Positions 3,037 to 62,642 of a stretch of DNA of 64,000 nt are shown here, piece by piece. Source of the DNA: an uncultured Bacteroidales bacterium (GTDB taxonomy: Bacteria; Bacteroidota; Bacteroidia; Bacteroidales; Paludibacteraceae). The notes beneath the pieces were generated by a model. It was not told where the DNA came from. It saw nothing but the letters and a program-made list of their open reading frames with translations, and searched no databases. Location: positions 1 through 64,000 of the forward strand of contig CACWZZ010000002.1 in assembly GCA_902765485.1 (NCBI GenBank). The letters run 5' to 3'. Position 1 is the first letter of the stretch. The number at the start of each line of letters is the position of its first letter. A program made the translations under genes and the position numbers.

Positions 3037-4113
3037 ATGAAAGAGTATATAGAAAAAGCAGAGCATATCGTTATATTGACCCACATGGCGCCGGACGGCG
3101 ACGCGATGGGTTCGGCGTTAGCGCTGTGGCACTATTGTAAGGGACAAAGGGACGAAGTACAAAGTACAAAGGAAGTGACGGTGATAGTGCCGAATGCTTA
3201 TCCGGCGTTCCTCGGATGGATGCCCGGGGCGAAGGAAGTGAAAGTTTACGAGCAGGAGAGTGCCGCTTGCGACAAACTAATCGCAGAAGCGGATCTGTTC
3301 CTCTGCACGGATTTCAATGAACCGAAACGCATCGGTCCTATGGGCGAGAAGTTAATCGCAAGCGAGGCTCCGAAGATTCTAATCGACCACCATATCATGG
3401 AGCCATCAACCGTCGGAGATCAGCCTTCTTTTTGGGCGGAAGTACACTCCCACCCTGAGGCAAGTTCGGCATGTGAGATTGTGTATAAGTTGATTACAGC
3501 GGTCAGCTGTCACGGCCACGGGCTCGCCATCAGCCATCAGAAGTCAGAAGTCAGCCTTGAGATTGCGACCTGTATCTATACCGGTTTGATGACCGATACG
3601 GGTAATTTCAGTTATAATTCCACCAACGCAGAACTATACGACATCATCGCTTCTCTTTTACGCGCGGGCGTGAAGAAAGACGAGATCTACAATGCCGTTT
3701 TCAACCAGTTCAGCACAGACCGAATGCGGTTGACGGGCTATGCCCTGTATCGCAAGATGCGCATTTATCCGGAGTACCACCTGGCACTCATCACTCTTTC
3801 GGCGGACGAGTTGGACCAATACCACTACAAGACGGGCGATTGCGAAGGGATTGTGAACATGCCGCTGCAGATTGCGGATGTGTATTACTCCGTTTTTATG
3901 CGTGAGGAGCGCGCCAAACCGGGTACACCCAAACCGCGGATACGTATCTCGTTCCGTTCGCAGGGCGACAGGCCGGTGAACATCTGGGCAGGAGAAGTGT
4001 TCCACGGAGGCGGACATGCAAACGCTTCCGGAGGCGAAGTGTTCGGCAGTATGGGATATGCCGTCAAACTATTTGAGCAAAGCTACGGGAAGTATTTGAA
4101 AGGTGAAAGGTGA
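3037..4113 (+). CDS. DHH/DHHA1 phosphoesterase (bifunctional oligoribonuclease / pAp phosphatase type)
   Basis: About 358 aa. Family members (NrnA-type) degrade nano-RNA and pAp in the cytoplasm. Visible motifs: THMAPDGDAMGSALAL near the N-terminus (DHH motif I), CTDFNEPKRIG, then IDHH, MTDTGNF and a C-terminal GGGHANASGG (DHHA1). I start at the ATG at 3037 because MKEYIEKAEHIVILTH begins like the family; a GTG at 3007 would add ten odd residues. Two short repeats lie in frame: 3141-3177 encodes GQRDEVQSTKEV and 3525-3556 encodes AISHQKSEVS just before the conserved CIYTGLMTDTG. The last codons (KGER, stop) come from a third array, TGAAAGG, so the natural C-terminus was probably altered by repeat insertion. 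Confidence 0.85.
   Translation: MKEYIEKAEHIVILTHMAPDGDAMGSALALWHYCKGQRDEVQSTKEVTVIVPNAYPAFLGWMPGAKEVKVYEQESAACDKLIAEADLFLCTDFNEPKRIGPMGEKLIASEAPKILIDHHIMEPSTVGDQPSFWAEVHSHPEASSACEIVYKLITAVSCHGHGLAISHQKSEVSLEIATCIYTGLMTDTGNFSYNSTNAELYDIIASLLRAGVKKDEIYNAVFNQFSTDRMRLTGYALYRKMRIYPEYHLALITLSADELDQYHYKTGDCEGIVNMPLQIADVYYSVFMREERAKPGTPKPRIRISFRSQGDRPVNIWAGEVFHGGGHANASGGEVFGSMGYAVKLFEQSYGKYLKGER
3141..3177. repeat. 7-bp array (ACAAAGT word) inside the DHH gene
   Basis: Units drift around ACAAAG/AAGTACA with period 7. In frame, no stop in the reading frame used. Confidence 0.55.
3525..3556. repeat. 7-bp array (TCAGCCA/TCAGAAG words) inside the DHH gene
   Basis: Units CAGCCAT, CAGCCAT, CAGAAGT, CAGAAGT, CAGCC. 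The orientation used is free of stops in all three frames; the opposite orientation would read repeated TGA. Confidence 0.65.
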
Positions 4114-4150
4114 AAGTTGAAAGGTGAAAGTTGAAAGGTGAAAGTTGAAA
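4097..4150. repeat. 7-bp array (TGAAAGG/TGAAAGT words)
   Basis: About seven units of GAAAGGT/GAAAGTT between the DHH gene and the parvulin gene. It supplies the stop codon of the DHH gene (TGA at 4111-4113). Confidence 0.75.
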
Positions 4151-4168
4151 TTTTTAAAAAAAAGATAT

Positions 4169-7578: not shown

Positions 7579-8951
7579 GAAAGTTCATTATAGTTATTCT
7601 CGCCTCGCTGGTGTTGCCTGCGGCGGCAGAGGAGTTGTTGAATTACCCGCTGGACACGGTGAACGGCGAGGAAGTGTACCGCTATCAGGTGGAGAAAAGT
7701 ATCGGTCTGTATCGTATCGGTGTCAATTTCAATGTGAGCCAGAGCGAGATCATCCGTTTCAATCCGCAGTTGCGGGAGAGAGGTCTGCACTACGGTGAGA
7801 TCATTTTGATCCCGACCGGGCGGAAAGTGGAGGCGAAGGCTGTTGCGGTTGTTGCTGAAGAGCCAAAGGCGGTTGCTTCAGTAGCGGTTGACACGGCTGT
7901 AGTAGAAACGGCGGTTGCGGTTGATTCGGTAGTGGTTGACACAGCGGCGGTTGATTCGGCGGCTGTTGATTCGGTCGTTGCAGAGACGCGGCGTGTGGTG
8001 GAGTTGGCATTGATGCTGCCGTTTGAGAGCAAGCAGACGAAGCGGAGCGGAAATGCAGAGCGGATGATGGAGTTTTATGAAGGAGCTTTGCTGGCTTTGC
8101 GCGATATGCAGAACGACAGTACGTTATTCAAGTTGCGCGTATATGACACGGAGCGGAGCGAACGGAGAGTGAATGAACTATGCGACAGCACGGAGCTGGA
8201 CAGCGTACAAGGTATATTGGGTTTGGTTTATCCTATTCAGATTGAGCGGATGGCGGCTTGGTGCGAGAGCCACAAAGTGCCGCTGATGTTGCCGTTCAGC
8301 GATGATATAGACCTGAAGCGCTACTCGCACGTGCTGCAATTCAATTCGACTGACCAACAGGAAGCAGACAGTTTATGCGCATGGATGGTACAACAAGAGA
8401 ACATCCATTGCGTGGCGGTAGAGGTTCGTGAAGCCGATATTGCTTCGTCCATCCGCACGCTGCGCAAACAGATGGCAGCCCATGAGATCCGGTACACCGG
8501 TGTAGCTCTGCGCGACCTGATGAACGATAGCGCCGAGTATGCATTGGACAGAGAGAAAGAGAACCTGATCATTATGCATAGCGACCGTTTCCAACATGCG
8601 CGTATGATCATGCCGCACTTGGAGAAACTACAGGAAGCAGGATATAGGATTCGTATCGTGAGCCAGTACAGCTGGCAGAAAGAGAAACCGGTGCTGCCGC
8701 AGGTTTATACCTCTATGTTTACCATAGAAGGCGAGCACGCTGTATATGACGCGATGTGGTCGGAGAGTTATAAGAACGAACATGTATGCGAGTTGCCGCG
8801 GTATGACTTGCTGGGTTACGATCTGATGAAAGCATTGGTACTTCGTCTGCAAGGCGAGAACGAAATGAATGGTATTCAGTCCATGATCCGTTGGCGTCAA
8901 GTAGGCGAAGGCGGATGGCAGAATGAAGGAGTGAAGGTAGTTGAAAGGTGA
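7575..8951 (+). CDS. Secreted LysM-like plus periplasmic-binding-fold protein
   Basis: 458 aa; the ATG overlaps the gldG stop (ATGA). A signal peptide (MRKFIIVILASLVLPAAAEE) is followed by a LysM-like segment (YRYQVEKSIGLYRIGVNFNVSQSEIIRFNPQL...GEIILIPTG), an Ala/Val/Asp linker at about residues 85-140 made of repeats such as VDTAAVDSAAVDSVV, then a region resembling a type 1 periplasmic-binding fold (VELALMLPFESKQ, GLVYPIQIERM, PLMLPFSDD). Such proteins bind peptidoglycan with the LysM and are not necessarily transport receptors. The linker DNA is a degenerate tandem repeat and may vary in length between strains. The last codons and stop come from a TGAAAGG array. Confidence 0.75.
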   Translation: MRKFIIVILASLVLPAAAEELLNYPLDTVNGEEVYRYQVEKSIGLYRIGVNFNVSQSEIIRFNPQLRERGLHYGEIILIPTGRKVEAKAVAVVAEEPKAVASVAVDTAVVETAVAVDSVVVDTAAVDSAAVDSVVAETRRVVELALMLPFESKQTKRSGNAERMMEFYEGALLALRDMQNDSTLFKLRVYDTERSERRVNELCDSTELDSVQGILGLVYPIQIERMAAWCESHKVPLMLPFSDDIDLKRYSHVLQFNSTDQQEADSLCAWMVQQENIHCVAVEVREADIASSIRTLRKQMAAHEIRYTGVALRDLMNDSAEYALDREKENLIIMHSDRFQHARMIMPHLEKLQEAGYRIRIVSQYSWQKEKPVLPQVYTSMFTIEGEHAVYDAMWSESYKNEHVCELPRYDLLGYDLMKALVLRLQGENEMNGIQSMIRWRQVGEGGWQNEGVKVVER

Positions 8952-8983
8952 AAGGTGAAAGGTGAAAGGTGAAAAGTGAAAGG
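8941..8983. repeat. 7-bp array (TGAAAGG word)
   Basis: Six units after the LysM gene; it supplies that gene's TGA (8949-8951) and ends just before the PorT-like start. Confidence 0.75.
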
Positions 8984-8992
8984 AAATATATA

Positions 8993-10534: not shown

Positions 10535-10725
10535 TGCGTCATAGCAATGTGCGCTGAATAACCCCCTAATCACCCCCTAATCACCCCCTTATCACCCCCT
10601 TATCACCCCCTTTTGAGAGGAAAAAGGTGAAAGGTGAAAGGTGAAAAGCCCCCTCCGGCTCCCCCATGGAGGGGGAGAGGAGAGTTGAAAGGATGAAAGG
10701 TGAAAGGTGAAAGGTGAAAGGTTGA
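10535..10725. repeat. Composite repeat block: 11-bp array, 7-bp arrays, palindromic element
   Basis: Order: a GCGTCATAGCAAT lead, an 11-bp array CCCCCTAATCA/CCCCCTTATCA (10561-10611), TTTTGAGAGGAAAA, a TGAAAGG array, a CCTCC palindrome (10648-10685) and a second TGAAAGG array. The lead, 11-bp array and first 7-bp array recur at 59493-59596. Confidence 0.65.
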
Positions 10726-21000: not shown

Positions 21001-23453
21001 AAATAGACTGGAAAAAGATTGCGCCATATCTGGTGGCGGTAGTAGTATTTGTGGGCTTTGCAGTGCTGTATTGCAGCCCGATTTTGGAAGGCAAAGTAGT
21101 TTATGCCGGTGATACCATGAACTGGCTTGGAGCTGCACATCAAACGCAAGAATATCGTGCACAAACGGGAGAGTCGTGCTGGTGGACCAACTCCATGTTC
21201 GGCGGTATGCCGACATACCATATTGATTCGCATATTCCATCGCATACTTTTGTACGCGAGTTGCGTGATTTGCTGCACTTGGAATTACCGGAAACAATTA
21301 GTATTATTTTCGGTTATTTTCTGTGTTTTTATATTTTGCTATTATGCTTTGGTGTAAACCCATGGATCAGTATTGCCGGTAGCCTAGCCATGGGTATGAG
21401 CACCTATTTCTTTTTGATTATCCCTGCGGGACATATTACAAAAGCACTTGCCATGGGATTGCTTCCAGCTATTCTGGGAGGCGTTCACTTGGTTTTTGAG
21501 AAGAAATATTTTCTTGGTATTCCTATTATGCTGTTTTTTAGCATAACCAGTATTACGCTTCATCCTCAAATGAGTTATTATATAGCAATGCTCATCGGAG
21601 TATGGGTTATTGCAGAAATATACCTCAAGATTCGTGAAGACGCATGGAAAGAGTTGGGTATCAGTTTGGTTGTTTGCTTAGCGTCGGTAGTACTAATCGG
21701 AACTTCTAAGATTTGTTCGGTTAAGATGAATGCAGAGTATCTGAAAGAGACCATGCGCGGCGGACATAGCGAACTTACAAAGGGACAAAGTGGCAAAGTA
21801 CCAAGTACAAAAGCAGGATTGGATATCAAATATGCGACGGACTGGAGTTACGGAAAAGGCGAGACGATGACGTTGCTTATCCCGAACTGGGAAGGCGGTG
21901 CGAGCGGTTATGACTTAGGCAAAGACAGCCAGTTGAGTCAAGCGATGCGCAAGCAGGGAGTGCCTAAACGCGATGCAGAACAGTTCTGCCAACACGCGCC
22001 CACTTATCGCGGAGAGAAGGCATTCACCAGCGGAGCTGTGTATGTAGGAGCGATCGTTTGCTTCCTTTTCCTCTTAGGTTTGCTAATCGTGCCCGGTCTG
22101 TACAAATGGGCATTGCTGTTCGCGACGCTGATGTCAATTTTCCTGGCTTGGGGAAAGAATATGATGTGGCTGACGGAGCTGTTCTTCAATTATTTCCCGA
22201 TGTACAACAAGTTCCGCGCGGTGGAGTCGATCCTTGTGGTAGCAGAAGTTACAATGCCGTTGCTGGGCTTCATGGGATTGCAGAAGATTATCAACGGCGA
22301 AGTGGAATGGAGTAAACTGCGCAACAGCCTCTTTATCGCAGGCGGCGTGACGGCAGGCATATGTCTAATTGCTGCCCTATTTGTAGGAGGCGCGGATATG
22401 ACAAGCAGTTATGACGCACAATGGAAGAGCCAAGTGCCGCAGTGGCTCTATGACGCCATTCTTGATCAACGCGCCGCTATGGCGAAAGCCGATGCATGGA
22501 GAAGTCTGCTGTTTGTAGTCCTCGGTTTCGCGCTCACTTTCTGGTATGCATGGCAGAAACAGAAAGCAGACAAACCAGCCTATGCGTATGTATTATACGC
22601 AGGTATGGCAGTGCTGGTACTGGCAGATATGGTTCCGGTGAACAAGCGTTTCTTCAATGACGACAATTTCGTGAAGCAAAAAGAGAACGAGGCATATTTC
22701 AAGATACAGCCTTGGGAGGAACAGATTTTGCAAGACAAGAGTTTAGACTACCGCGTGCTGAACCTGAATACCAATACTTTCAACGACTCGCGTACGAGTT
22801 ACCGTCTCAAATCTATCGGCGGTTATCATGCAGCCAAACTGCGTCGGTATCAGGATCTGATAGACGAACATATCAGCAAAATGAACTGGAGCGTGCTTAA
22901 CATGCTGAATACGAAATATATCATCACACGTCAAGGTGTTTATCCCAATCCCGATGCGATGGGGAATGCTTGGTTTGTGAACGATGTGCAGTTTGTACCG
23001 ACGCCGGACGATGAGAGTGCTGCGCTGAACACATTGGATTTGAGCAGAACAGCTGTAGCAGATGAGAAATTCCGCGAGGTACTCACTTGCAATGCGCTGC
23101 CAAATGAGACAGACGAGATCATTATGACCAGCTACACCCCCAATACTCTGGAATACCGTACCGCAACGTCAAGCGACCGCGTAGCTGTTTTCTCAGAGAT
23201 CTATTACCCGCATGGATGGCATCTCTACGTTGATGGTAAAGATGTTGCTCTCGGTCGCGTCAACTATGTTCTGCGCGCCGCAATTATTCCTGCCGGAGAA
23301 CACCAGCTGACCATGACCTTCACTCCTGACGCTCTGGCATGGGACAAACTAGGGTTCACACTCGTGATCCTGTCTATTCTCATCTCTATAGGGTGTCTCG
23401 GATTCAGCTTACAACGTTATTTCGCTTCGCGTAAAAACGCAGTAGCGGAATAG
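20997..23453 (+). CDS. YfhO-family membrane glycosyltransferase-like protein
   Basis: 818 aa. N-terminal hydrophobic helix, then AGDTMNWLGAAHQ in the first outer loop, SCWWTNSMFGGMPTYH, about twelve membrane segments, and a C-terminal extracytoplasmic domain (YHAAKLRRYQDLIDEH, FSEIYYPHGWHLYVDGK) before a last helix. In Gram-positives YfhO decorates lipoteichoic acid; in Bacteroidetes the substrate is unknown. The ATG overlaps the upstream stop (ATGA). Residues around TKGQSGKVPSTKAG come from a 7-bp array at 21775-21815. Its 3' end overlaps the convergent GT2 gene by 50 bp. Confidence 0.82.
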   Translation: MKIDWKKIAPYLVAVVVFVGFAVLYCSPILEGKVVYAGDTMNWLGAAHQTQEYRAQTGESCWWTNSMFGGMPTYHIDSHIPSHTFVRELRDLLHLELPETISIIFGYFLCFYILLLCFGVNPWISIAGSLAMGMSTYFFLIIPAGHITKALAMGLLPAILGGVHLVFEKKYFLGIPIMLFFSITSITLHPQMSYYIAMLIGVWVIAEIYLKIREDAWKELGISLVVCLASVVLIGTSKICSVKMNAEYLKETMRGGHSELTKGQSGKVPSTKAGLDIKYATDWSYGKGETMTLLIPNWEGGASGYDLGKDSQLSQAMRKQGVPKRDAEQFCQHAPTYRGEKAFTSGAVYVGAIVCFLFLLGLLIVPGLYKWALLFATLMSIFLAWGKNMMWLTELFFNYFPMYNKFRAVESILVVAEVTMPLLGFMGLQKIINGEVEWSKLRNSLFIAGGVTAGICLIAALFVGGADMTSSYDAQWKSQVPQWLYDAILDQRAAMAKADAWRSLLFVVLGFALTFWYAWQKQKADKPAYAYVLYAGMAVLVLADMVPVNKRFFNDDNFVKQKENEAYFKIQPWEEQILQDKSLDYRVLNLNTNTFNDSRTSYRLKSIGGYHAAKLRRYQDLIDEHISKMNWSVLNMLNTKYIITRQGVYPNPDAMGNAWFVNDVQFVPTPDDESAALNTLDLSRTAVADEKFREVLTCNALPNETDEIIMTSYTPNTLEYRTATSSDRVAVFSEIYYPHGWHLYVDGKDVALGRVNYVLRAAIIPAGEHQLTMTFTPDALAWDKLGFTLVILSILISIGCLGFSLQRYFASRKNAVAE
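21775..21815. repeat. 7-bp array (ACAAAGT word) inside the YfhO gene
   Basis: Same word family as 3141-3177, in frame, in a loop region. Confidence 0.5.
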
Positions 23454-28995: not shown

Positions 28996-30030
28996 TTAAT
29001 GATAAAAACGTGTGCCGGGGAGGCAGGAGAAGGAATCGATGACGCCGACGACGTGAGGGGAATTTGACATTTCATCAACTACAATCAAGGTGTGGATGGA
29101 GTGATGGTTCATCTTCTCGCCGGCTTCGACGATCTTGGCATCCTTGGAGATCGTTTTGGGATCGCGGGACATGATCTCCGATACCGGGGTATCAAAGAAC
29201 GAAGCACCGAGCCGCTGCATCGCACGGCGGATGTCTCCGTCGGTAATGATACCGACTAATTGAGAATTGAGAATGGAGAATTGAGAATTGAGAATGGAGA
29301 ATTGAGAATTCTCCGTTTGATCTACCACGATGCCGATTCCCAGAGTACCTTTGGTGACGATTTCGATCGCTTCGCGCATCGGCATTCGGGGCGAGAGGAA
29401 GGGCAGGTTTTCGGTAAACATGACGTCCTCCACTTTGGCAAGCAGTTTGCGTCCAAGGTCACCTCCGGGATGCAAAGCGGCAAAGTCGGTCGGCTGGAAA
29501 TGGTTCGCTTCCACCAGCGCACATGCCAACGCATCGCCCATAGCGAGGGTGGCGGTGGTAGAGGCTGTGGGGATCAAGTTCAGCGGATCAGCTTCTCGCG
29601 AAACGGATATATTCAGATGTACCGCGGCGTATTTGGCGAGGAGACTTTCTTCGTTGGACGACATGCCGATGATTTGTATTCCTTTCGCCTGAATGAGCGG
29701 CAGGAATCGCAGTAACTCTTCGGTTGCGCCGGAATAGGAGATTGCGAGGACAAGGTCTTCGGCGGAGAGCATTCCCAGGTCTCCGTGGTAGGCATCCAGC
29801 GGGTTTAGGAAGAATGCCGGTGTGCCGGTAGAAGCCAGCGTAGCGGCGATCTTCGAACCTATATGTCCGGACTTGCCCACGCCGGTAACAACGACCTTGC
29901 CTTTGCAGGCACGTATCATTTCCACCGCCTGCAGGAAATGTTCGTCCAGCCGTTCCTGCAAAGCCGTAATAGCTGCTGCCTCGGTATGCAGACACTCCGC
30001 GGCTCTTTGTATTATCGGATTTTCGTTCAT
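28996..30030 (-). CDS. kdsD: Arabinose-5-phosphate isomerase (SIS plus two CBS domains)
   Basis: 344 aa. SIS domain with VVTGVGKSGHIGSKIAATLASTGTPAFFLNPLDA, ISYSGATEELL; GDALACAL and LHPGGDLGRKLL; then two CBS motifs (GIITDGDIRRAM, GVIDSF). It interconverts ribulose 5-phosphate and arabinose 5-phosphate, the first step of Kdo synthesis. A 7-bp array at 29258-29310 is read in frame and adds two copies of SQFSILN inside the first CBS domain, with the stop-free orientation in the coding sense. The start overlaps the upstream gene by 4 nt. Confidence 0.9.
   Translation of the reverse strand: MNENPIIQRAAECLHTEAAAITALQERLDEHFLQAVEMIRACKGKVVVTGVGKSGHIGSKIAATLASTGTPAFFLNPLDAYHGDLGMLSAEDLVLAISYSGATEELLRFLPLIQAKGIQIIGMSSNEESLLAKYAAVHLNISVSREADPLNLIPTASTTATLAMGDALACALVEANHFQPTDFAALHPGGDLGRKLLAKVEDVMFTENLPFLSPRMPMREAIEIVTKGTLGIGIVVDQTENSQFSILNSQFSILNSQLVGIITDGDIRRAMQRLGASFFDTPVSEIMSRDPKTISKDAKIVEAGEKMNHHSIHTLIVVDEMSNSPHVVGVIDSFSCLPGTRFYH
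29258..29310. repeat. 7-bp array (GAGAATT/GAGAATG words) inside kdsD
   Basis: About seven units of GAGAATT/GAGAATG. The coding strand is the minus strand, where no stop appears; the plus orientation carries TGA repeatedly. Confidence 0.7.
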
Positions 30031-30710: not shown

Positions 30711-30751
30711 TGCTTGTTTTCTCCCGTTATTCTCCCGACGACGTCATACTA

Positions 30752-30794
30752 ACAACCCACTAATCACCCACTAATCACCCACTAATCACCCACT
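30752..30794. repeat. 11-bp array (CCACTAATCAC)
   Basis: About four units of CCACTAATCAC between kdsC and ispD; related in form to the CCCCCTAATCA arrays at 10561 and 59505. Confidence 0.6.
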
Positions 30795-31491: not shown

Positions 31492-32643
31492 GTGCGTATA
31501 GGAATATTAGGAACAAGTTGGCCTTACAGAGGTGGTTTGACCGCTTTCAATGAGCGTCTGGCGCGGCAGTTTGCGGCGGAAGGGCACGAGGTGGAGATTT
31601 TCACTTTCACGATGCAATATCCGGATTTTCTTTTCCCGGGTAAGACACAATATTCGGACCTGCCTAAGCCGGAGGACTTGTCTATCACGCGCACGATGAA
31701 CAGTATCAATCCTTTCACGTGGATTCGTACCGCGCGCAGGATCCAGAAAGCCGGCATTCAGCTGCTGGTGATCAAATTCTGGATTCCGCTGATGGCGCCA
31801 TGTCTGGGCACGATCGCGCGTCTATGCCGGAGAAAAGGAATCGAGGTGGTGTCTATCCTTGACAATGTGATTCCTCACGAGCCGCATTTCTGGGACAAAT
31901 GGCTGATCCGCTATTATGTGGGCAGCGTGGATCGGTTCGTAGCCATGTCCGCGAGCGTACAAGAGGACTGCCGACGCTTCCTGCCGGAGGAACGCAAAGG
32001 GCTGGTAGCACTATCGCCTCATCCGCTTTATGACAATTTCGGCGAGCCGGTAGCGAAGAGCGAAGCGCGGCGGATTTTAGGTCTGCCGGAGGACAAGACG
32101 ATCCTGCTTTTCTTCGGTTTCATCCGCGATTACAAGGGTTTGGACCTGCTGATGAAAGCCTATGCGAAGGTACTAAGTGACCAAGGACCAAGGACCAAGG
32201 ATTTGCTGCTGGTGGTGGCAGGTGAATTTTACAATAACGGCGAGCAATATACGGCGTTGGAGCAGGAGCTGGGGCTGAAGGGCAAGATTGTGTGGCATAC
32301 GGATTTCATTCCGGATGAGCGCGTGCGGCTCTATTTCTCTGCGGCGGATTTGATTGTTCAGCCTTACAAATCTGCTACGCAGAGCGGCGTGACGCAGATC
32401 GCTTACCATTTCGAGCGCCCGATGTTGGTGACGAACGTGGGCGGTTTGGCAGAAATTGTGCCGGACGGCAAAGTGGGTTATGTGTGCCCGGTAGATGAGA
32501 CGGCTGTGGCAAACGCGATCGGACGTTTTGCGCAGATGAGTACGGAGGAACGAGACGCACTGTTCCTGCCCAATATCCGAAAAGAAAAAGAGAAATATGC
32601 GTGGTCAAGGATGACTAAAGTCATCTTGACATTTGAGATTTGA
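31492..32643 (+). CDS. Glycosyltransferase family 4
   Basis: 383 aa from a GTG start directly after the promoter. GT-B fold with RIGILGTSWPYRGGLTAFNERLA, ILLFFGFIRDYKGLDLLMKAYAKV, and donor-site residues in LIVQPYKSATQSGVTQIAYHFERPMLVTNVGGLAEIV. A CCAAGGA array (32178-32201) adds SDQGPRTKD in a loop of the C-terminal domain. The last codons (ILTFEI, stop) come from a GACATTT array. It starts a plus-strand group with the GDP-heptose enzymes. Confidence 0.87.
   Translation: MRIGILGTSWPYRGGLTAFNERLARQFAAEGHEVEIFTFTMQYPDFLFPGKTQYSDLPKPEDLSITRTMNSINPFTWIRTARRIQKAGIQLLVIKFWIPLMAPCLGTIARLCRRKGIEVVSILDNVIPHEPHFWDKWLIRYYVGSVDRFVAMSASVQEDCRRFLPEERKGLVALSPHPLYDNFGEPVAKSEARRILGLPEDKTILLFFGFIRDYKGLDLLMKAYAKVLSDQGPRTKDLLLVVAGEFYNNGEQYTALEQELGLKGKIVWHTDFIPDERVRLYFSAADLIVQPYKSATQSGVTQIAYHFERPMLVTNVGGLAEIVPDGKVGYVCPVDETAVANAIGRFAQMSTEERDALFLPNIRKEKEKYAWSRMTKVILTFEI
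32178..32201. repeat. 7-bp array (CCAAGGA word) inside the GT4 gene
   Basis: Three CCAAGGA units, in frame. Confidence 0.5.
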
Positions 32644-32664
32644 CATTTGACATTTGAGATTTGA
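32626..32664. repeat. 7-bp array (GACATTT/GAGATTT words)
   Basis: Five to six units at the end of the GT4 gene; its TGA (32641-32643) lies in the array, and the heptose kinase starts 5 bp after it. Confidence 0.7.
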
Positions 32665-34260: not shown

Positions 34261-35455
34261 CGAAGCTATCATATTAGCCGGCGGTTTCGGGACTCGTTTG
34301 AGCCACGTGGTGAGCAACGTCCCAAAGCCGATGGCGCCGGTGTACGGCAAGCCTTTCCTATGCTATCTGATGGACAGGCTCGTCGATGCCGGCATAGAGC
34401 GTATCGTGCTTGCCACGGGCTACAAACACGAGGTAATTGAGTCCTATTTCGGTACTTCGTACCGCGGCGTGGAGATCATTTATTCGCAGGAAGAGACACC
34501 CCTTTTCACCGGTGGCGCTATCGTGCAGGCGGCACGAAAACTGGAAACGGAGCATTTTGTAGTCCTCAACGGAGATACCCTTTTCGATATTGATTTTGAG
34601 GAACTTGCGCAGGCGCATGAGCGTCAGAATGCGTCTATCACGATTGCCCTTCGGGCGGTAGCAGACACAGCGCGTTACGGCGCGGTCAGTTGCGCAGAAG
34701 ACGGACGAATCGCGGCGTTTAATGAGAAAGAGGCGAGCGCCGGAGCGGGAGTTATCAACGGCGGGATCTATGTGATCAACCGTGCGTGGCTTCTGGGGCA
34801 AGAGTTGCCGGGTAAGTTCTCTTTCGAGAAAGAGTTGCTGCAGCCGATGGCGGGCAAAGAAGCGATCTACGGCGTAGAGTTTCATTCGTATTTCATCGAC
34901 ATCGGTGTGCCGGAGGACTATTTCCGCGCGCAGCGGGAGTTCAAGGCGCTGTTCCCTGCCGATGAGTTTCTGTTTCTCGACCGCGACGGCGTGCTCAATG
35001 TGCAGATTCACGGGGATTACGTTCGTTCATGGGGTCAATGGAAATGGATGGACGGTATGCCGGAGCAGCTTGCCCAATGGGCGAAGGAGTATAAGCGCGT
35101 TTTTCTGGTCACGAACCAGCAGGGCGTGGGCAAAGGGCTGATGAGCGAAGCCGATTTAGCGGAGATCCACCGACACATGCTGGAGGAGGTAAAGGCGGCA
35201 GGCGGACGGATCGACGGGATCTATGTCTGCACGGACTTGGAGGGCAGTCACAGCCCTTGCCGCAAACCCGCTATCGGCATGGCGCTGCAGGCGCAGAGAG
35301 ATTTTCCTGAAGTGGATTTTCACCGCTCTATCATGATCGGCGACAGTGTATCCGATATGCTTTTCGCGCGCAACGCGCAAATGCGGGCGGTCTATATTTC
35401 TAAAAAAAATCCCGTGCCGGAGGAGGTACGGGATGTTACAGATTTAATTTTATAG
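34253..35455 (+). CDS. Fusion of heptose-1-phosphate guanylyltransferase (HddC) and heptose bisphosphate phosphatase (GmhB)
   Basis: 400 aa from a GTG start overlapping gmhA by 8 nt. Residues 1 to about 235 are a sugar nucleotidyltransferase (AIILAGGFGTRLSHVVSNVPKPMAPV, VLNGDTLFDIDF). Residues about 240-400 are a HAD phosphatase (FLFLDRDGVLN, LVTNQQGVGKG, CRKPAIGM, MIGDSVSDM). With gmhA and hddA the locus encodes all four activities from sedoheptulose 7-phosphate to GDP-D-glycero-D-manno-heptose in three genes. Fused forms occur in other bacteria; the heptose end use here is not shown. Confidence 0.85.
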   Translation: MFSEAIILAGGFGTRLSHVVSNVPKPMAPVYGKPFLCYLMDRLVDAGIERIVLATGYKHEVIESYFGTSYRGVEIIYSQEETPLFTGGAIVQAARKLETEHFVVLNGDTLFDIDFEELAQAHERQNASITIALRAVADTARYGAVSCAEDGRIAAFNEKEASAGAGVINGGIYVINRAWLLGQELPGKFSFEKELLQPMAGKEAIYGVEFHSYFIDIGVPEDYFRAQREFKALFPADEFLFLDRDGVLNVQIHGDYVRSWGQWKWMDGMPEQLAQWAKEYKRVFLVTNQQGVGKGLMSEADLAEIHRHMLEEVKAAGGRIDGIYVCTDLEGSHSPCRKPAIGMALQAQRDFPEVDFHRSIMIGDSVSDMLFARNAQMRAVYISKKNPVPEEVRDVTDLIL

Positions 35456-35540
35456 CTGTCAGCTATCAGCCTTCAGAAGTCAGCTATCAGCCGTCAGATG
35501 TCAGATGTCAGCTATCAGCCTTCAGAAGTCAGATTTCAGT
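35456..35540. repeat. 7-bp array (TCAGAAG/TCAGCTA/TCAGATG words)
   Basis: About twelve units filling the whole gap between two convergent genes; the thiL stop (35536-35538 on the minus strand) lies in the array. Confidence 0.75.
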
Positions 35541-36588
35541 TTTCAAAGGCATTGAAGCCTTGCGCTTTGAGACCTATTTCTTCGCCGTTGCGACCGATGA
35601 GGTTGCAGCCGTATTCGGGTTTGGTAATATGCCCGATGATATAGAGGTCGTCGATCGGGATGAGCTTCTCGTAGTCGTTGATGGAGCAGGTGAAGAGCAG
35701 TTCGTAGTCTTCTCCGCCGTTGAGTGCACAAGTGACGATATTGAGGTTCATCTCCTCCGCCAGCGCGGCTGCTTCGTAGTCGATCGGCAGCTTGTCCTCA
35801 TAGACGCAGCACCCCACTCCTGATTGGGAGCAGATATGCAGTAACTCGGAGGAGAGCCCGTCGGAGACATCCATCATCGCGGTCGGCTTGACGCCCGCTT
35901 TGCGCAGGGCTTCGAGGATGTCACGCCGTGCTTCGGGTTTGAGTTGGCGCTCGAGGAGGTACTCTTTGCCCTCGAAAGCCCCCTCCGTCTCCCCCGTGGA
36001 GGGGGAGAGATTAGTGCCATAGTTGGTAGAACGATGCACCATAAGTTCGCGCTCCAAGAGCTGGAGACCCATGTACGCCGTGCCGAGGTTGCCGGAGACG
36101 CAGATGAGGTCGTTCAGCTTGGCACCGTTGCGATAGACGATGTCTTTGGCAGCCGCCACGCCGAGGCAAGTGATGGAGATCGTCAGTCCGGTCATAGAGG
36201 AGCAGGTGTCGCCTCCGACGAGATCGACGTTGTACCGCTCGCAGGCAAGGCGGATGCCGGAATAGAGTGCCTCGATGTCTTCTACCGAGAAGCGCTTGGA
36301 GATACCGAGCGAGACGGTAATCTGGGTCGGTGTGCCGTTCATGGCGTAGATGTCCGAGAAATTGACCACCGCCGCCTTGTATCCAAGGTGCTTGAGCGGC
36401 ACGTATTCCAAGTTAAAATGAATGCCTTCGAGCAGCATGTCGGTCGTCATGAGGACGCGCTTGGAGCCGAAGTCCATGACCGCGCAGTCGTCGCCCACGC
36501 CTTTTTTGGTGGAAGGCTGGACGTGTTTGAGATCCTTTGTCAGATGTTTGATGAGTCCGAACTCACCGTATTTGGAGATTTCAGTCAT
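35536..36588 (-). CDS. thiL: Thiamine-monophosphate kinase
   Basis: 350 aa. GVGDDCAVMDF near residue 32, MTTDMLLEGIHF, KAAVVNFSDIYAMNG, VGGDTCSS, MMDVSDGLSSEL and GGEDYELLFTC are the ThiL/PurM signatures. It makes thiamine diphosphate from thiamine phosphate with ATP. A palindromic element at 35976-36012 is read in frame as LSPSTGETEGAFEG in a variable loop before LERQLKPEAR. The C-terminus ends in a 7-bp array, and another 7-bp array abuts its start, so the gene is bracketed by repeats. Confidence 0.92.
   Translation of the reverse strand: MTEISKYGEFGLIKHLTKDLKHVQPSTKKGVGDDCAVMDFGSKRVLMTTDMLLEGIHFNLEYVPLKHLGYKAAVVNFSDIYAMNGTPTQITVSLGISKRFSVEDIEALYSGIRLACERYNVDLVGGDTCSSMTGLTISITCLGVAAAKDIVYRNGAKLNDLICVSGNLGTAYMGLQLLERELMVHRSTNYGTNLSPSTGETEGAFEGKEYLLERQLKPEARRDILEALRKAGVKPTAMMDVSDGLSSELLHICSQSGVGCCVYEDKLPIDYEAAALAEEMNLNIVTCALNGGEDYELLFTCSINDYEKLIPIDDLYIIGHITKPEYGCNLIGRNGEEIGLKAQGFNAFEN
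35976..36012. repeat. CCTCC/GGAGG palindromic element inside thiL
   Basis: CCCCCTCC...GGAGGGGGAG arms, in frame. Confidence 0.65.
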
Positions 36589-36591
36589 GAG

Positions 36592-36622
36592 AGTTGAAAG
36601 TTGAAAGTTGAAAGTTGAAAGT
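36592..36622. repeat. 7-bp array (TGAAAGT word)
   Basis: Four to five units filling the gap between thiL (start side) and the upstream minus-strand gene's stop. Confidence 0.7.
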
Positions 36623-38325
36623 TAACGCTGTTTTATGCCTCTTACATCGTAGATTTGTCCTTCGTACATCAGCCAGAGTTGGCCATTTCGGAGGAGTTTA
36701 GAACCCCTCTCCGTCTCTCCCCTCAAGGGAGAGAGGGTGTTTTCAATGCCGGTGGCTGTATTCTTGCGCGCAAGGCGGATGGATGCAATGCCACCGTCGC
36801 CGCTGCTTTGGGCGGAGACGACAGAGAGCATAAAAGGTTGCTGTTGCTCCACGACTAAGGTGTTGCCGGCTACTAGCAACTTGGTTTTGGAGCCAAAGGC
36901 TTCTCCGTTGATATAGAATTCCACTTCTCTTTCTTTACTCGCCATGGAGGTGAGGACGACGGTGTCACAGGCAGGGAGGAAGAGTTCAACGTGGGTCTTT
37001 CCCGCAATCTCACGGCTGTAGTCCTCGTCAGTCTTGGAGAAGCGCCATTTCTTGGTCGCATCCCACCCGTAAGCACTCTTGACCCAACTGCTCTCGGAGC
37101 CATCAAAGACGATCAGCGAGTCCGTGAAAGCGACAGGTGTTACGGGCTGAAAATCAGTAGTATAAGTAGCCGTTGAGCCGTTCAATGCCGTGATCGTAAT
37201 TTCATTCCCGTTTTGGCTCCAAGCGGCTCTTTCGGAGAGGATGTAACTCTCCACCTCGGGCACAGGATCGCCCTGCATATACCATCCTCGGATGATGTTT
37301 TCTCCCTCGTTGATAAAGGCATAATAGCCGTTGGAGAGCACCACTTCGTTGATCGCTTTGGCAGCCGAGTCCACGGGTTGCGGTTCCACTTGGGGCTCAC
37401 CGGGCGTAGTTGCGTTCCAGCGCGTGTATTGGTAGATCGGCGTGTCTTTTTTCGAATCGGAAGTGGTGTAGAAAACGGAGTCATTGAGCCAAGCAAGGGA
37501 CTCACCCTGTTCCTCCTTCACATATGCCGCGATCTGGACCGGAAGACGGGTGGCAGTAGTTGCGAGCGACTCATTATTCAGGCGCTCCCAGAGGAGAATA
37601 TAACTCTCATTCTTGATTGCCATCCATTTGCCGTCCGGCGAGATGTCGCCGCCGTTAGCAAGTTTGAACTTGCTGCCGTTGCCCAGCGCACAGACCTCCG
37701 TAAGACGTTGTACACCGGAGCCATAGTCGGTGCGGAAAGGCAGTTTGTAAAGATGACACACGCCGTCCACCTTGTCCGCAATATAGAACATCTGCTCTAT
37801 ATTGTCGTACATGAGTGTCTCTGTGTTATGGGCATTGTTGTCGGGGTAGCCGAAACAGATGGTATTGACCGTGACGGTCTGGGAGCCGGAAGTGATAGCG
37901 GGTTCCTCGAAATAATAGATGTAGTATTGGTCGTTGAAAGCGAGATCGTTGTCTCCAATAGCCCCGACAAAGAGGTAGTTCTTGTTGTCATAAACACCGG
38001 TAGCGATGTCTTCCCAGTCGTCCCGTGAGTTATTGGGCGTCGTGAGGTTGAGGGTCATGGCGAGCGCGCCGGCAGGTGTGATGGCAATGATCTTGCGGTC
38101 CGAACCGGTGTTCTCGTCTCCGTGCGCCCAGAGGAAGCCGGGTGTGGTGCGCGAAGCAGCGAGCCCGCTGATCTCCTTCATGGTTTTCTTCAACTGAGTA
38201 CCGCATTGGGTGCGTGTGAAATCATTGTAGAGCGTCAGCGAGTTGCCATCGTAATTGATGCCGCTTGCCGCCCATACTCCGCCACTCATGATGATGGCGA
38301 TAAGAACCAAACTAATCTTTTTCAT
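36622..38325 (-). CDS. Secreted protein, possible beta-propeller, with T9SS-like short C-terminal motif
   Basis: 567 aa. A signal peptide (MKKISLVLIAIIMSGGVWA) starts at 38325; the longer open frame would cross the promoter. The body (GFLWAHGDENTGSDRKIIAITPAG, YLFVGAIGDNDLAFNDQ, YDNIEQMFYIADKVDG, LANGGDISPDGKWMAIKN) looks like a blade-repeat protein. It ends LRNGQLWLMYEGQIYDVRGIK, a variant of the tail shared by the next ten genes. A palindromic element at 36705-36745 encodes ENTLSPLRGETERG in the linker before the tail. First of eleven similar cargo genes. Confidence 0.72.
   Translation of the reverse strand: MKKISLVLIAIIMSGGVWAASGINYDGNSLTLYNDFTRTQCGTQLKKTMKEISGLAASRTTPGFLWAHGDENTGSDRKIIAITPAGALAMTLNLTTPNNSRDDWEDIATGVYDNKNYLFVGAIGDNDLAFNDQYYIYYFEEPAITSGSQTVTVNTICFGYPDNNAHNTETLMYDNIEQMFYIADKVDGVCHLYKLPFRTDYGSGVQRLTEVCALGNGSKFKLANGGDISPDGKWMAIKNESYILLWERLNNESLATTATRLPVQIAAYVKEEQGESLAWLNDSVFYTTSDSKKDTPIYQYTRWNATTPGEPQVEPQPVDSAAKAINEVVLSNGYYAFINEGENIIRGWYMQGDPVPEVESYILSERAAWSQNGNEITITALNGSTATYTTDFQPVTPVAFTDSLIVFDGSESSWVKSAYGWDATKKWRFSKTDEDYSREIAGKTHVELFLPACDTVVLTSMASKEREVEFYINGEAFGSKTKLLVAGNTLVVEQQQPFMLSVVSAQSSGDGGIASIRLARKNTATGIENTLSPLRGETERGSKLLRNGQLWLMYEGQIYDVRGIKQR
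36705..36745. repeat. CCTCC/GGAGG palindromic element in a cargo-gene linker
   Basis: CCCTCTCC...CTCAAGGGAGAGAGGG, in frame between passenger and C-terminal motif. Confidence 0.6.
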
Positions 38326-38348
38326 CGTGTCAGAAAAGAAATTGCGCA

Positions 38349-38380
38349 CAAAGATACTGCTTTTTTTGCACATACACAAA
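38349..38380 (-). promoter_or_regulatory. Promoter of the 36622-38325 gene
   Basis: Minus strand TTTG (38377-38380), 20 bp, TATCTTTG (38349-38356); exact consensus, 23 bp before the ATG. Confidence 0.75.
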
Positions 38381-45866: not shown

Positions 45867-47882
45867 TTAGCGCACTTCTGCGCCTTGCGCGTTATAGGTT
45901 TTGCCGTTGCGCTCGATATAGAGTACGCCGTCGCGGAGGAATTTATTGGTCATTTGTGATTGGTCATTTGTAATTTGTTCGATGCCGGTAGGCTCTTCCG
46001 ACTTCTCCAGGATAGTACCAAACAGTTTCCATCCGGTAGCATTTTGGTAAGCAGCGAGGACGGAGTGGTCTTCCGAGAAAGGTACATACAGGGTCTTATC
46101 TGTCGGGTCGAAGCCGTACCACTCGGAAGGCTCATATCCGCCTTTCTCAACGGAAACCTCAGGAGGAGTGGTAGCCTCCACCGTTATTGTCTGGATATTG
46201 GGGCAACCGGAGAAAGCAGTCATATGCACAAACTCCACATTGGCGCCAAGTCCCACTTTGGTAAGCGCATCGGATTGAACCAAATTGGCATCTATCGACT
46301 GCAAGGCGTCGGTAGCCTTTATCTCCGTAAGCGGGCAACCCGAGAACGCATATTCGCCCAGTGTCTGTGCGCCTCCGAGGTTGAGAGATATATAGTTGCA
46401 TCCCTGGAACGCGCGCATCTCCACAGTCGTACAACTTTCCGGGATAACCAGTTCTGCATTTTTGCCTAAGTTGTAGTTGGAATAATGGAAGAAAGCACCT
46501 CCACGAATGGCCTTGAGGCCTTCCGGTAAGGTCAGCGATGTAATGTATGAATCATGGAGAGCCAGCGTATCGATCTCCTCGATGGTATATTCCACCTCGT
46601 CGTGCGTGATAGTGGCAGGAATAACCAGAGCACCGGAAGGAATGGTTGTGTTATAGTCATAAGCGTCCATGATAGTTCCCCAGAGAGAGCGGCTACCGGT
46701 CTGGTTGCAGACAGCTACTTTGTGGTTTCCGGCATCCAGTATCTTGAAATACAGAGTCTGACCGGAAGGAACCGTTTCCGCGAAGTCATACGGGTGTGTC
46801 TTCTGCTCGTAGGTGAAGCTGAGCGTGGCATCCGCCGTTACAGAGAGGGTGGCCGTGTTTTCTGCGTTGAACTGATCTGTTACATCCGTCTCGCCGTAGA
46901 GAGCTTTTTTGATGCCGTAGTAGGGGTTGCCAAAGTTCACCTGAATAGTGAACTCATCCCCTTCTGCGCGCTTGAAGGTGAAGTTTGTATTTGAGGCATA
47001 ATCCAATCCGTCCACCGTGAAGCTGACTTGTTCCAACGAGGAGTATCCACCCGATACAGTGATATCATAGATAGGCAGCGTCTCTCCAATCTCAAGGATG
47101 TACTTGAAATCTTTCCATCCGTCCGCAGCTTTGTACGCGGCTTTAGAGCCTACCGGCACATATAAAATAGCGCGGTTCAGCAAGTCGGAGTAGAAACTGC
47201 CGTTGACCGTAGGAGGTGTCACAGTGTGGATCACCACGGTATCGATCGATGTCGTAGCGTAGTAAGGGGTGCTTTGGCCCAGCGAAGAAGCCTCAAATCC
47301 ATCGGCAATCGCGTTGCCTAATTCTACGTATTTGACGGCGCTGCTAATGAAACAATCCACTCCGACGGCAGTGACGGCGTCGGGCAGAACCACGCGCTTC
47401 AGATAGGTACACCATCCAAAGAGTCCTTCGGGAAGAGCAGATACTCCGGAGCCCAAAGTTATGTTACGTATACCCGTACCACGGAAAGCCTGGCCTCCGA
47501 TGGAAGTCACGTTGTCCGGGATGACCAGCGACGGGAAGTCATAGCTGTCCATAAAGACGAAAGACATCGACTCGCTGATACCGATATGGGTAAAAGTAGC
47601 TTCCGTTGGGAAGGTCACAGAGGTCAGGTCGGGGCATGCCCGGAATGCACTGTTTCCTATACCGCTGACGGTGTAGGTAATACTCTCGTGCTCTACGGTT
47701 GCCGGGATAACCAGGTCTCCGGTCGGTTTGGAGTTGCCGGCCACGACCACGCATACATGGTTTTCGGAGTCGGTGATGTTGAAATACAGAGTCTGACCGC
47801 TTCCGACTACAGCGGAGAAGTCATAAGCCCACGCACCGACCGCTATGCAGGCTGCGCATAAAAGAGTGAAAATTTTTCTCAT
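45867..47882 (-). CDS. BspA-like leucine-rich-repeat surface protein with T9SS-like tail
   Basis: 671 aa, signal peptide MRKIFTLLCAACIAVGAWA. Two LRR_5 blocks, each opened by a very similar unit (SGQTLYFNITDSENHVCVVV and SGQTLYFKILDAGNHKVAVC), which suggests internal duplication. Repeats look like LVIPDNVTSIGGQAFRGTGI. Between them is a non-LRR spacer. It ends LRDGVLYIERNGKTYNAQG. The linker TNDQSQMTN comes from a 7-bp-type array at 45951-45976. Confidence 0.87.
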   Translation of the reverse strand: MRKIFTLLCAACIAVGAWAYDFSAVVGSGQTLYFNITDSENHVCVVVAGNSKPTGDLVIPATVEHESITYTVSGIGNSAFRACPDLTSVTFPTEATFTHIGISESMSFVFMDSYDFPSLVIPDNVTSIGGQAFRGTGIRNITLGSGVSALPEGLFGWCTYLKRVVLPDAVTAVGVDCFISSAVKYVELGNAIADGFEASSLGQSTPYYATTSIDTVVIHTVTPPTVNGSFYSDLLNRAILYVPVGSKAAYKAADGWKDFKYILEIGETLPIYDITVSGGYSSLEQVSFTVDGLDYASNTNFTFKRAEGDEFTIQVNFGNPYYGIKKALYGETDVTDQFNAENTATLSVTADATLSFTYEQKTHPYDFAETVPSGQTLYFKILDAGNHKVAVCNQTGSRSLWGTIMDAYDYNTTIPSGALVIPATITHDEVEYTIEEIDTLALHDSYITSLTLPEGLKAIRGGAFFHYSNYNLGKNAELVIPESCTTVEMRAFQGCNYISLNLGGAQTLGEYAFSGCPLTEIKATDALQSIDANLVQSDALTKVGLGANVEFVHMTAFSGCPNIQTITVEATTPPEVSVEKGGYEPSEWYGFDPTDKTLYVPFSEDHSVLAAYQNATGWKLFGTILEKSEEPTGIEQITNDQSQMTNKFLRDGVLYIERNGKTYNAQGAEVR

Positions 47883-59492: not shown

Positions 59493-59660
59493 TTGCGTCA
59501 TAGGAATAACCCCCTAATCACCCCTTAATAACCCCCTTATCACCCCCTAATCACCCCCTTTTGTAAGGAAAAAGGTGAAAGGTGAAAGGTGAAAGAGCAC
59601 AAGCGAGCGGCACAAGCGAGCGGCACAAGCGAGCAGCACAAGCAGCAGCACAAGCGAGCA
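59493..59660. repeat. Composite repeat block: 11-bp, 7-bp and 13-bp arrays
   Basis: GCGTCATAGGAAT lead, CCCCCTAATCA-type 11-bp array, TTTTGTAAGGAAAA, TGAAAGG array (59572-59596), then a 13-bp array CACAAGCGAGCGG (59598-59660). The first three parts repeat the block at 10535-10647. Confidence 0.65.
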
Positions 59661-61767: not shown

Positions 61768-61886
61768 CTTTTAAATGCTTTGAGCTTCGCTCTATGTGTA
61801 TTTCGGGGCTATAAACTCCTCGTGTGCAAGCACCCGGATAGTTTCTATCCACAAAATCCACACCCTGCGGGTAAAGCATTTAAAAG
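61768..61886 (+). ncRNA. Predicted structured RNA or leader upstream of ruvA
   Basis: CTTTTAAATGCTTT (61768-61781) and AAAGCATTTAAAAG (61873-61886) are perfectly complementary over 14 bp and enclose about 91 nt with further hairpins (GAGC-TTC-GCTC at 61782-61792; GGATAG-TTT-CTATCC near 61834). A hairpin GGGAA...TTCCC (about 61711-61731) precedes it. A consensus promoter lies 80 nt upstream. It may be a 5' UTR regulator of ruvA or an independent RNA; I do not recognise the family. Confidence 0.5.
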
Positions 61887-61961
61887 CCATAAACAAAGAT
61901 AAAATTATTTAGTTGGTCCAAAATTACCCAAAATTAAAGAAAATTTATTTACTTTTCGTTC

Positions 61962-61988
61962 ACGAATTACACGAATTAAACGAATTTT
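61962..61988. repeat. Three-unit 9-bp array (ACGAATTAC type)
   Basis: ACGAATTAC, ACGAATTAA, ACGAATTTT; same form as the minus strand of 2053-2079. Lies 24 bp before ruvA. Confidence 0.6.
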
Positions 61989-62012
61989 AATTACACAAAG
62001 GGAAATATATAA

Positions 62013-62642
62013 ATGATTGATTATATAAAAGGCATATTGACGGAGCTGAATCCGACGGAAGCGGTGGTCGAAGCAGGGGGCGTGGGATACGCTATCGCTA
62101 TTACGCTGCCAGGGTATAGCGCGATGGTGGGGAAAGAAGAGCCTTCAGCCGTCAGCCATCAGCCGTCAGAAGTGAAGCTCTATATCACGGAAGTCATACG
62201 CGAGGACGCGCATGAGTTATACGGTTTCGTGGAGAAAAGCGAACGGCGGCTGTTTGAGCTGCTGATGACCGTGAGCGGCGTGGGTGCTTCTACCGCGCGC
62301 ATGATCATGAGCGCGTTCAGCGCAGAGGAACTGCGGATGCTGATCGCCACCGGCAACGCCAAAGCGATGGCGAAAGTGAAAGGCCTCGGACCCAAGACCG
62401 CACAACGGATCATCGTTGATCTGAAGGACAAAGCAATCAAGTTAGATCTCGGAGGCGACCCCACGGAGATACCGATGTTAGCTCCCGAGGCGGACACCGG
62501 CGTGCGCGCCGAAGCCATCAGCGCGCTGACGATGCTCGGGTTCGCTACGGCGCCCAGCGGCAAGGCGGTTGATAAGATCCTCAAAGGCGACCCGACACTC
62601 AAAGTGGAAGCGGTCATACGCGAGGCGCTGAAAATGCTATGA
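62013..62642 (+). CDS. ruvA: Holliday junction branch migration protein RuvA
   Basis: 209 aa. N-terminal OB domain (IDYIKGILTELNPTEAVVEAGGVGYAI), helix-hairpin-helix pair (VSGVGASTARMIMSAF, VKGLGPKTAQRIIVDLKDK) and the C-terminal RuvB-binding domain (AEAISALTMLGF). It tetramerises on Holliday junctions and guides the RuvB motor. A 7-bp array at 62141-62173 adds EEPSAVSHQPS in the OB domain between VGK and EVKLYITEVIREDA, so an essential-type repair protein carries a repeat-encoded loop. Confidence 0.95.
   Translation: MIDYIKGILTELNPTEAVVEAGGVGYAIAITLPGYSAMVGKEEPSAVSHQPSEVKLYITEVIREDAHELYGFVEKSERRLFELLMTVSGVGASTARMIMSAFSAEELRMLIATGNAKAMAKVKGLGPKTAQRIIVDLKDKAIKLDLGGDPTEIPMLAPEADTGVRAEAISALTMLGFATAPSGKAVDKILKGDPTLKVEAVIREALKML
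62141..62173. repeat. 7-bp array (TCAGCCG/TCAGCCA words) inside ruvA
   Basis: Four to five units; the orientation used has no stop in any frame, while the opposite one has repeated TGA. Confidence 0.7.

Follow-up and report, generated by a model that had tools for sequence, protein, structure and literature searches.

Arrays of seven-base units repeated in tandem have been described in several bacteria. In the accessible portions of the sources, three tandem heptanucleotides are reported for Calothrix PCC7601 (told in PMC4692102), GGGGA(C/T)T heptads for Nostoc and GGGAATC or GGGANTN heptads for Xanthomonas (PMC4692102), TAACTGA arrays with stops in three frames for Beggiatoaceae, cyanobacteria and five Bacteroidetes (MacGregor 2015, PMC4679880), and satellites derived from heptamers are also described (PMC6749651). 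The abundance of long simple sequence repeats (LSSRs) of 5-11 nt was surveyed by Mrazek in 2007 (via PMC4679880 and PMC4692102). Bacterial heptamer repeats are thus long known; an accepted account of the origin of their words and of the number seven is wanting. We analysed here a window, that is, the whole stretch of 64,000 nucleotides at positions 1 to 64,000 of contig CACWZZ010000002.1 (assembly GCA_902765485.1, an uncultured Bacteroidales bacterium of the Paludibacteraceae), in which heptad arrays with changing words lie inside genes and between them. What is new in these arrays is that their sites are kept between species while their words change.

Arrays of the window were detected with Tandem Repeats Finder (TRF) and with a lag-match detector which assigns to each tract its best period. 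The leading tandem period is 7: the lag detector returned 10 tracts of period 7, 2 of period 14 and 1 of period 28, all of them heptad tracts (the single tract of period 21 is not), period 9 comes second with 8 tracts, and ten dinucleotide shuffles of the window gave 0.0 heptad tracts per shuffle. A sample of the same genome (G000; 20 stretches, 400 kb in total) holds 54 tracts of period 7, 21 of period 11 and 13 of period 9, and three shuffles of this sample hold no period-7 tract. The nearest named relatives are metagenome-assembled genomes of gut Paludibacteraceae and Bacteroidales, many of ruminant origin (the closest RuvA matches, at 99%, are JAFTZQ010000029.1 and CADAZU010000016.1). Among seven species of the genus, sampled over 200 to 464 kb each, period 7 leads in all seven, with 175 (own genome), 111, 92, 227, 108, 85 and 155 heptad arrays per Mb. 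Head-to-tail 7-bp units beyond chance, the mark of LSSRs and of the short tandemly repeated repetitive (STRR) sequences, are therefore present in the window, in the 400-kb sample and in the seven species.

These counts bear on an initial annotation made from the letters of the window alone, which had listed at least twelve arrays of strict 7-bp period and had read them as a fixed period with changing words rather than one transposing sequence. This reading is supported; in the comparison with shuffled sequence that it proposed the frequency is far beyond chance, and the positions it gave are right within a few bases. Two of its tracts, however, are not strict: both ACAAAGT tracts mix spacings of 7 and 8. 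For the one at 3139-3172 TRF reports a consensus of 8 letters with 81% matches and 7% indels (there are 2.4 clean AAGTACA copies at 3155-3171), and the one at 21777-21811 is given period 8 with 78% matches. The list was also incomplete, as TRF and the lag detector found further arrays at 10694 and 45945.

We then call orthologous place the match of both flanks of an array in another species, pairs found from both sides being counted twice. Such a place exists for 118 of the 278 arrays sought, which gives 281 pairs, and for 467 of 1500 random places, which gives 1177 pairs. A heptad array stands at the orthologous place in 77 of the 281 pairs, against 18 of the 1177 for random places. The words at these 77 shared pairs are identical in 3 and one mismatch apart in 3, while they are 2 to 5 mismatches apart in the remaining 71. 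The sharing is also seen inside open reading frames (ORFs; these, like gene ends, were defined by a simple longest-ORF rule without a gene caller): with the closest relatives excluded, 46 of 174 in-ORF pairs share an array, whereas the figure is 30 of 4480 when the in-ORF places are random and 8 of 212 for a control at indel-tolerant places, which show a non-array length change of at least 9 bp.

The words themselves form species-specific pools, in which a word recurs at unlinked loci of one species. Our genome has 35 distinct words among 81 arrays and favours the types TGAAAGG, TGAGAAT and TGACGGC; the favoured words of the relatives are GGGTTAC and TTGGTGA (G003), AAAGTCG (G022), CAATTAT and CAATGCA (G021) and GGACAAT (G002). 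Pairs of arrays with the same word (in any rotation, on either strand) make up 4.9% within species and 1.3% between them, and the within-species rate of 0.049 was reached in none of 1000 permutations of the labels, although some words, such as AAAAATT and AACCCGT, are common to more than one species. At 59 distinct shared sites (species with at least 15 arrays; the sites are mutually non-independent) the word fits the pool of its own species better in 48 cases and that of the partner in 9, with 2 ties. Site sharing without word sharing, the species pools and the TGA core described below were all out of reach of the initial annotation. The arrays of the window, with what stands at some of their places in relatives, are the following.

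3139..3172, + strand: heptad array of imperfect ACAAAGT/GGGACAAA units, in the DHH gene (TRF, ortholog comparison); the place holds GGTTACG in G003 and G006, AAGTCGA in G022 and CAATGCA in G021, whereas G002 and G004 lack a clear array there.
3526..3554, + strand: TCAGCCA/TCAGAAG array inside the DHH gene (TRF, lag detector); G006 carries a GGTTACG-type array.
4097..4150, + strand: TGAAAGG/TGAAAGT array which provides the stop of the DHH ORF, ending at 4113 (TRF, lag detector); G357 carries TGAAGATTTGAAGATTTGAAAT.
8942..8983, + strand: TGAAAGG array which provides the stop of ORF 7386-8951 (TRF, lag detector).
10623..10646, + strand: AAAGGTG array, preceded by an 11-mer array and a 13-nt linker (TRF).
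10694..10722, + strand: TGAAAGG array 5' of ORF 10749-11552 (TRF, lag detector).
21777..21811, + strand: imperfect ACAAAGT tract of mixed 7/8 spacing inside a YfhO-family gene (TRF); no array in the four relatives compared.
29258..29310, - strand: AATTCTC array inside an SIS-CBS gene (KdsD/KpsF-like), encoding NSQFSILNSQFSILNSQL (TRF); TTGGCTG units in G004, a palindromic insert in G021 and G022.
32179..32201, + strand: GACCAAG array inside a glycosyltransferase gene (TRF); a CAATCAC array in G003.
32626..32664, + strand: TTGACAT/TTGAGAT array at the 3' end of ORF 31492-32643 (TRF, lag detector).
35454..35545, + strand: mixed TCAGNNN array, TCAG mostly fixed and NNN variable (TRF), for which the tract detection by period gives 35454-35539; shorter and re-ordered in G356, with flanks 97-98% identical.
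36588..36623, + strand: TGAAAGT array between ORFs 35536-36588 and 36622-38379 (TRF, lag detector).
45945..45975, + strand: ATTGGTC/ATTTGTA array inside a BspA-type leucine-rich repeat ORF (TRF, lag detector).
59571..59595, + strand: AAAGGTG array which follows an 11-mer array and a linker (TRF); one unit fewer in G356.
62140..62169, + strand: TCAGCCG array in the N-domain part of RuvA (TRF); unchanged in G356 and G357, other words or none elsewhere.

In the ABC_transp_aux gene (window near 6204), one place holds five different words in G035, G003, G002, G006 and G021; our genome has there a CCTCCC...GGGAGG palindrome, and G004, G022 and G027 have other sequence. This palindrome, CCTCTCCCTAACCCTCGCCTCAAGGGAGGG, lies inside the ABC_transp_aux ORF at 6204-6233, and similar ones are found at the KdsD site of G021 and G022. 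Repeats of other periods accompany the heptads. Period-11 arrays (ACCCCCTTATC, ACCCACTAATC) lie at 10557-10612, 30748-30794 and 59505-59560 of the window, and they keep their places even more than heptads do: 22 of 38 orthologous pairs are shared, often with different words, against 16 of 586 for random places, 10 of the 22 being among the three closest genomes. A 13-mer array, AGCACAAGCGAGC, follows immediately on a heptad array, at 59596-59660, and is much shorter in G356. At 2384-2570 there are three adjoining units, in each of which a 9-mer is repeated about three times, the word changing from unit to unit (GGTCAATYC, TGCAAATAG/TGCACTTTC and TTTTGCCAC); each unit ends in ATGTCATTTTTTT, and the first two have inverted halves around GTTTCGCCC-like loops.

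Most words of our genome share a core. TGA or TCA is present in 69 of the 81 arrays, and in these the mismatch is 5.0% at T, 2.6% at G and 1.3% at A, then 16.0, 12.0 and 12.7% at the next three positions and 4.7% at the last one. In a larger sample, which mostly overlaps the first, the core (TGA and the preceding base) differs in 3.5% and the three free positions in 13.3%; none of 5000 rotations reaches this contrast, the grouping into core and free positions having been picked after the first mismatch table. Five TGAs at period 7 have 266 matches in the genome against 15 for the backward control (overlapping matches counted). As a universal rule the TGA core was rejected, since the relatives have TGA in only 19 of 51 arrays. 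With these 19 arrays pooled, TGA phases give no core contrast; contrasts appear when relatives are anchored on their own commonest trinucleotides, a choice of anchor which favours finding them. In a scan of the phylum many genomes have at least as many matches to the backward pattern as to TGA (a TGA match is present in 182 of 296 genomes; overlaps counted separately). In G352, which belongs to the same class, the core is of the ATG/GATG type and three positions vary by 26-30%; short samples of other genomes yielded no heptad array (G240 and G161; 35 and 40 kb), one (G239; 20 kb) or four (G173; 60 kb), which says little because they cover only 20-60 kb. Variant units tend to recur in other arrays: 31 of 44 units with at least two differences do so, against 0.39 for random variants, and 83 of 111 with a single difference, against 0.59.

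The arrays occupy spacers, the ends of genes and those places of proteins where length varies, probably loops, in the orientation which is free of stops. By the longest-ORF rule, 45 of 87 arrays of our genome are inside ORFs, 29 at ORF ends and 13 intergenic. Inside ORFs, the opposite strand carries TGA in 32 cases and the coding strand in 4, while 9 lack it, a ratio which is largely forced because an ORF is free of TGA by definition; at ORF ends flanked by co-directional genes, 20 arrays have TGA in sense and 3 in antisense. It had been claimed that in-gene arrays avoid stops and that this points to selection after insertion. For RuvA, KdsD and the second DHH array the claim stands, as the reversed array would bring TGA in all frames, but the ACAAAGT and CCAAGGA repeats, judging from their words, are free of stops on both strands; and the bias of 32 to 4, with 9 lacking TGA, does exist, although as an argument for selection it is partly circular. 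Degenerate TCA-type heptads at 9010-9050 encode the hydrophobic core FLSILSFQLSVSYAQP of a putative signal peptide (OMP_b-brl_2 ORF 8969-9616).

Turnover was followed among close relatives, in whose examined stretches a comparable place was available for 18 of the 87 arrays. In G356 (flanks mostly 91-98% identical), 2 of 13 arrays are identical, 8 differ and 3 are below detection; in G357 (flanks mostly 86-93%), 2 of 16 are identical, 1 differs and 13 are below detection, a category which includes remnants of one or two units. Whole heptads are gained, lost and re-ordered, and in one case there is another word. In the comparison of copy numbers suggested at the outset, the 8 differing sites of the 13 in G356 remain arrays, one of them with another word, a variation in copy number like that which characterizes LSSRs and STRR sequences. 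The annotation had also proposed a copying or slippage process as the maker of new arrays. We examined 173 of the 204 array-free orthologous segments (those of at most 90 bases): the longest match to the word of the array has a mean of 4.20 bp, against 4.04 for random words of the same genome (60 replicate means, maximum 4.21). This means that the words do not pre-exist at array-free sites, where a very small excess of microhomology is possible. Arrays are indeed found in genes with array-free orthologs, and plain local slippage as the origin of new arrays is not supported in the form in which it was stated.

The ruvA gene allows the same place to be followed in 80 sequences (our gene and 79 of 80 loci, the fragment L212 being omitted). 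The segment in question is short (9-11 residues) in 57 of them, longer in 22, and in one the region is absent. Ten of the 80 have heptads with a lag-7 score of at least 8, of the types TCAGCCG, AAGTCGA, GGTTACG, AGTGAAG, ACAAAGT and GGAGTCC. On a tree of 79 sequences (without L196, which lacks the region) the insertions are scattered, many nodes being weakly supported. In a group of four species which are 89-92% identical over the locus, L136 and L143 have an AAGTCGA array, L139 a decayed form of it and L155 an unrelated AATGGTG patch, and the more distant L186 is empty. Allowing for recombination of ruvA, the patch of L155 would most simply be a replacement of the AAGTCGA array. Identical runs of 48-64 bp are found at one RuvA site in L155, L171, L164 and L142, four species with 69-84% identity in the 90 bp of flank. 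In a fifth species, L138, the core of the patch occurs at three places within about 800 bp (3133, 3475 and 3930), on one strand; two of these are in ruvA and each encodes NGDAAL, and the third lies about 450 bp onward. As for its neighbourhood, ruvA directly follows the ortholog of 35536-36588 in G035, G003 and G002, whereas about 25 kb separate them here (36622-62012).

Several candidates for a carrier or a cause were rejected. For a mobiliser of the IS200 type or a tyrosine transposase associated with repetitive extragenic palindromes (REP; RAYT), the search of G000, a genome which is 83% complete, returned no match to Y1_Tnp at E 0.001; a mobile repeat of the REP/RAYT type would have a constant sequence and a Y1 transposase, and here the words vary. 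A link with a dispersed unique element is likewise missing: the families of 16-mers are few and near arrays in 4 of 38 copies in G000, 1 of 22 in G022 and 0 of 15 in G035. The exception is the composite of 11-mer array, linker and AAAGGTG. The composite (ACCCCCTTATC array, TTTTGNNAGGAAA, AAGGTG) stands at five places in 524 kb of our genome (L038, L042, L043 and two in the window), and at L050 and L225 the 11-mer array is followed by TTTTGAG without AAGGTG. Finally, copying of whole arrays, sought as shared haplotypes, equals its unit-shuffled control, and drawing of units from the pool in one jump is not supported by the distribution of unit differences.

The arrays are dispersed heptanucleotide repeats under rapid turnover, and we infer from the foregoing that each new one arises from a copied patch rather than slipping from local sequence. 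The donor would be a short single-stranded patch coming from elsewhere in the genome, usually from an existing array, or from the DNA of another species. It could be copied in through microhomology by template switching, of the short-patch illegitimate type or of the type of microhomology-mediated break-induced replication (MMBIR). A mechanism of the former kind, short-patch double illegitimate recombination (SPDIR), was reportedly described by Harms and co-workers in 2016. The incoming patch would often replace a resident linker or array and then grow by in-phase slippage, the step at which the period of 7 would arise, with a reshuffling of whole heptads and a filter on the reading frame and stop codons. 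Since no donor would be commoner than an array, and no tolerated target either, each species would drift to its own pool of words, which would be a bacterial counterpart of concerted evolution. We give this combination of seedless patch copying and in-phase slippage a probability of roughly one half, and several observations weigh against it. The words at orthologous places resemble each other a little more than they resemble random words of the partner species (3.16 against 3.44 mismatches, a value as low as this occurring in 10 of 2000 nulls), and the 77 pairs are closer in the same orientation in 41 cases, in the opposite one in 21 and equal in 15; this indicates some descent in place or a shared constraint. 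Sharing in spacers is only about three times the background (48 of 163 against 56 of 586, close relatives included). Sparse relatives exist, G004, G027 and G031 having given 3, 1 and 0 arrays (in 40, 19 and 20 kb). The differences between units fit a binomial, the pattern that point mutation would yield; shared strings of several units (at least 28 bp) number 12 pairs, against 5-14 after shuffling of the units; and the dispersed unique 16-mers named above are few and seldom near arrays. The RuvA patch of L138 shares with the others runs of only 18-26 bp, and their identical patches could come from ordinary homologous exchange between species. Loss of mismatch repair, too, is not the cause, since MutS_V was found in 40 of the 41 genomes searched, our own included.

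The most serious competitor, which we regard as possible though not as the better bet, is a memoryless and recurrent insertion of any debris at rare tolerant sites, the coincidence of places being one of survival only. It overlaps with patch copying, which adds to it the copying from the pool and the replacement in place. In its favour, one place holds arrays, palindromes or nothing depending on the species, and random spacer sites are already 9.6% occupied; but the in-ORF sharing of 26% is 7 times that of indel-tolerant ORF positions (3.8%), coarse as this control is. Local replication slippage alone, seven bases being a favoured slip of the polymerase and chance seeds growing where selection allows, would account for the gain and loss of whole heptads between close relatives, and in the accessible text of PMC4679880, which tells of Mrazek (2007), no class outnumbers the heptanucleotides in most genomes, and the contact length of the polymerase is offered for the period of 7. 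It is nevertheless already disfavoured, and we hold it to be unlikely, because orthologs are nearly seedless and words are common to unlinked loci of one species. Homologous recombination between species might carry arrays together with their gene, different words then reflecting different donors. The identical patches across diverged species speak for it, as do the 3' ends of ruvA, which are 97% identical between L155 and L143 and 82% between L155 and L136; yet ordinary recombination would import foreign words, and the fit of shared-site words to the pool of their host (48 against 9 for the partner) makes it distinctly unlikely as the general explanation. Two further proposals start from the core. 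Arrays could be sites at which a fast-evolving regulator binds DNA or RNA, with the core (TGA here) as the contact and the sites kept for their function: this would suit the conserved core with its freer positions and the conservation of places, and the available text of PMC4679880 proposes a post-transcriptional role for the TAACTGA arrays of Beggiatoaceae. However, about half of our arrays are in ORFs (45 of 87), several of them in unrelated housekeeping genes, other species have palindromes or nothing at the same places, and in G357 no array was detected at 13 of 16 sites, so that we find such a function improbable. Neither would we expect, except as a long shot, that heptads are written in trans by a genome-encoded factor with a specificity of 3-4 nt (TGA here, other cores in sister species), its drift rewriting arrays at kept sites in a drive like that of satellites.

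Whatever their origin, many species with different words at the same loci are natural experiments in which births, losses and rewrites can be read in housekeeping genes. The seedless insertion of short copied patches becomes testable, and the pools suggest a bacterial parallel to the concerted evolution of satellites. Proteins are lengthened at their variable places by heptad repeats, and such places mislead gene trees and gene calling.

In comparison with known systems, the initial annotation had named the STRR heptamers of cyanobacteria as the nearest. The likeness of class is real, Calothrix and Nostoc having, in the accessible accounts, short dispersed heptanucleotide arrays with several words per genome; but our search of the literature, outside of which subscription papers mostly lie, returned no account of orthologous sites with species-specific heptad words and no report of a species-wide core in arrays of the STRR type. 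Heptanucleotides are the leading class among the LSSRs of Mrazek (2007; via the accessible parts of PMC4679880 and PMC4692102), as they are here, but that work is a survey of abundance. In phase-variable contingency repeats a change of repeat number switches a gene on or off within a population; the in-ORF arrays of our genome lie in frames which are open by definition. According to the accessible text of PMC4679880, the TAACTGA repeats resemble ours in being heptamers which contain TGA, bring stops in three frames and are tolerated by ORFs in reverse orientation, and likewise some neighbours of sister species are free of arrays. Their main genome has one word, related heptamers being rare, and arrays of this type are mostly intergenic, just upstream of start codons, whereas our genome has 35 distinct words in 81 arrays, 45 of 87 arrays in ORFs, and shares places with change of word. 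The GGGANTN heptads of Xanthomonas (accessible text of PMC4692102) are similar in their number, nearly two hundred arrays per genome, in having conserved and free positions, and in that most arrays are at the same genes in two species with variable length. There, however, both species were searched for one and the same word and have it, and some 90% of the arrays are intergenic; here the words are different and ORFs hold about half of the arrays.

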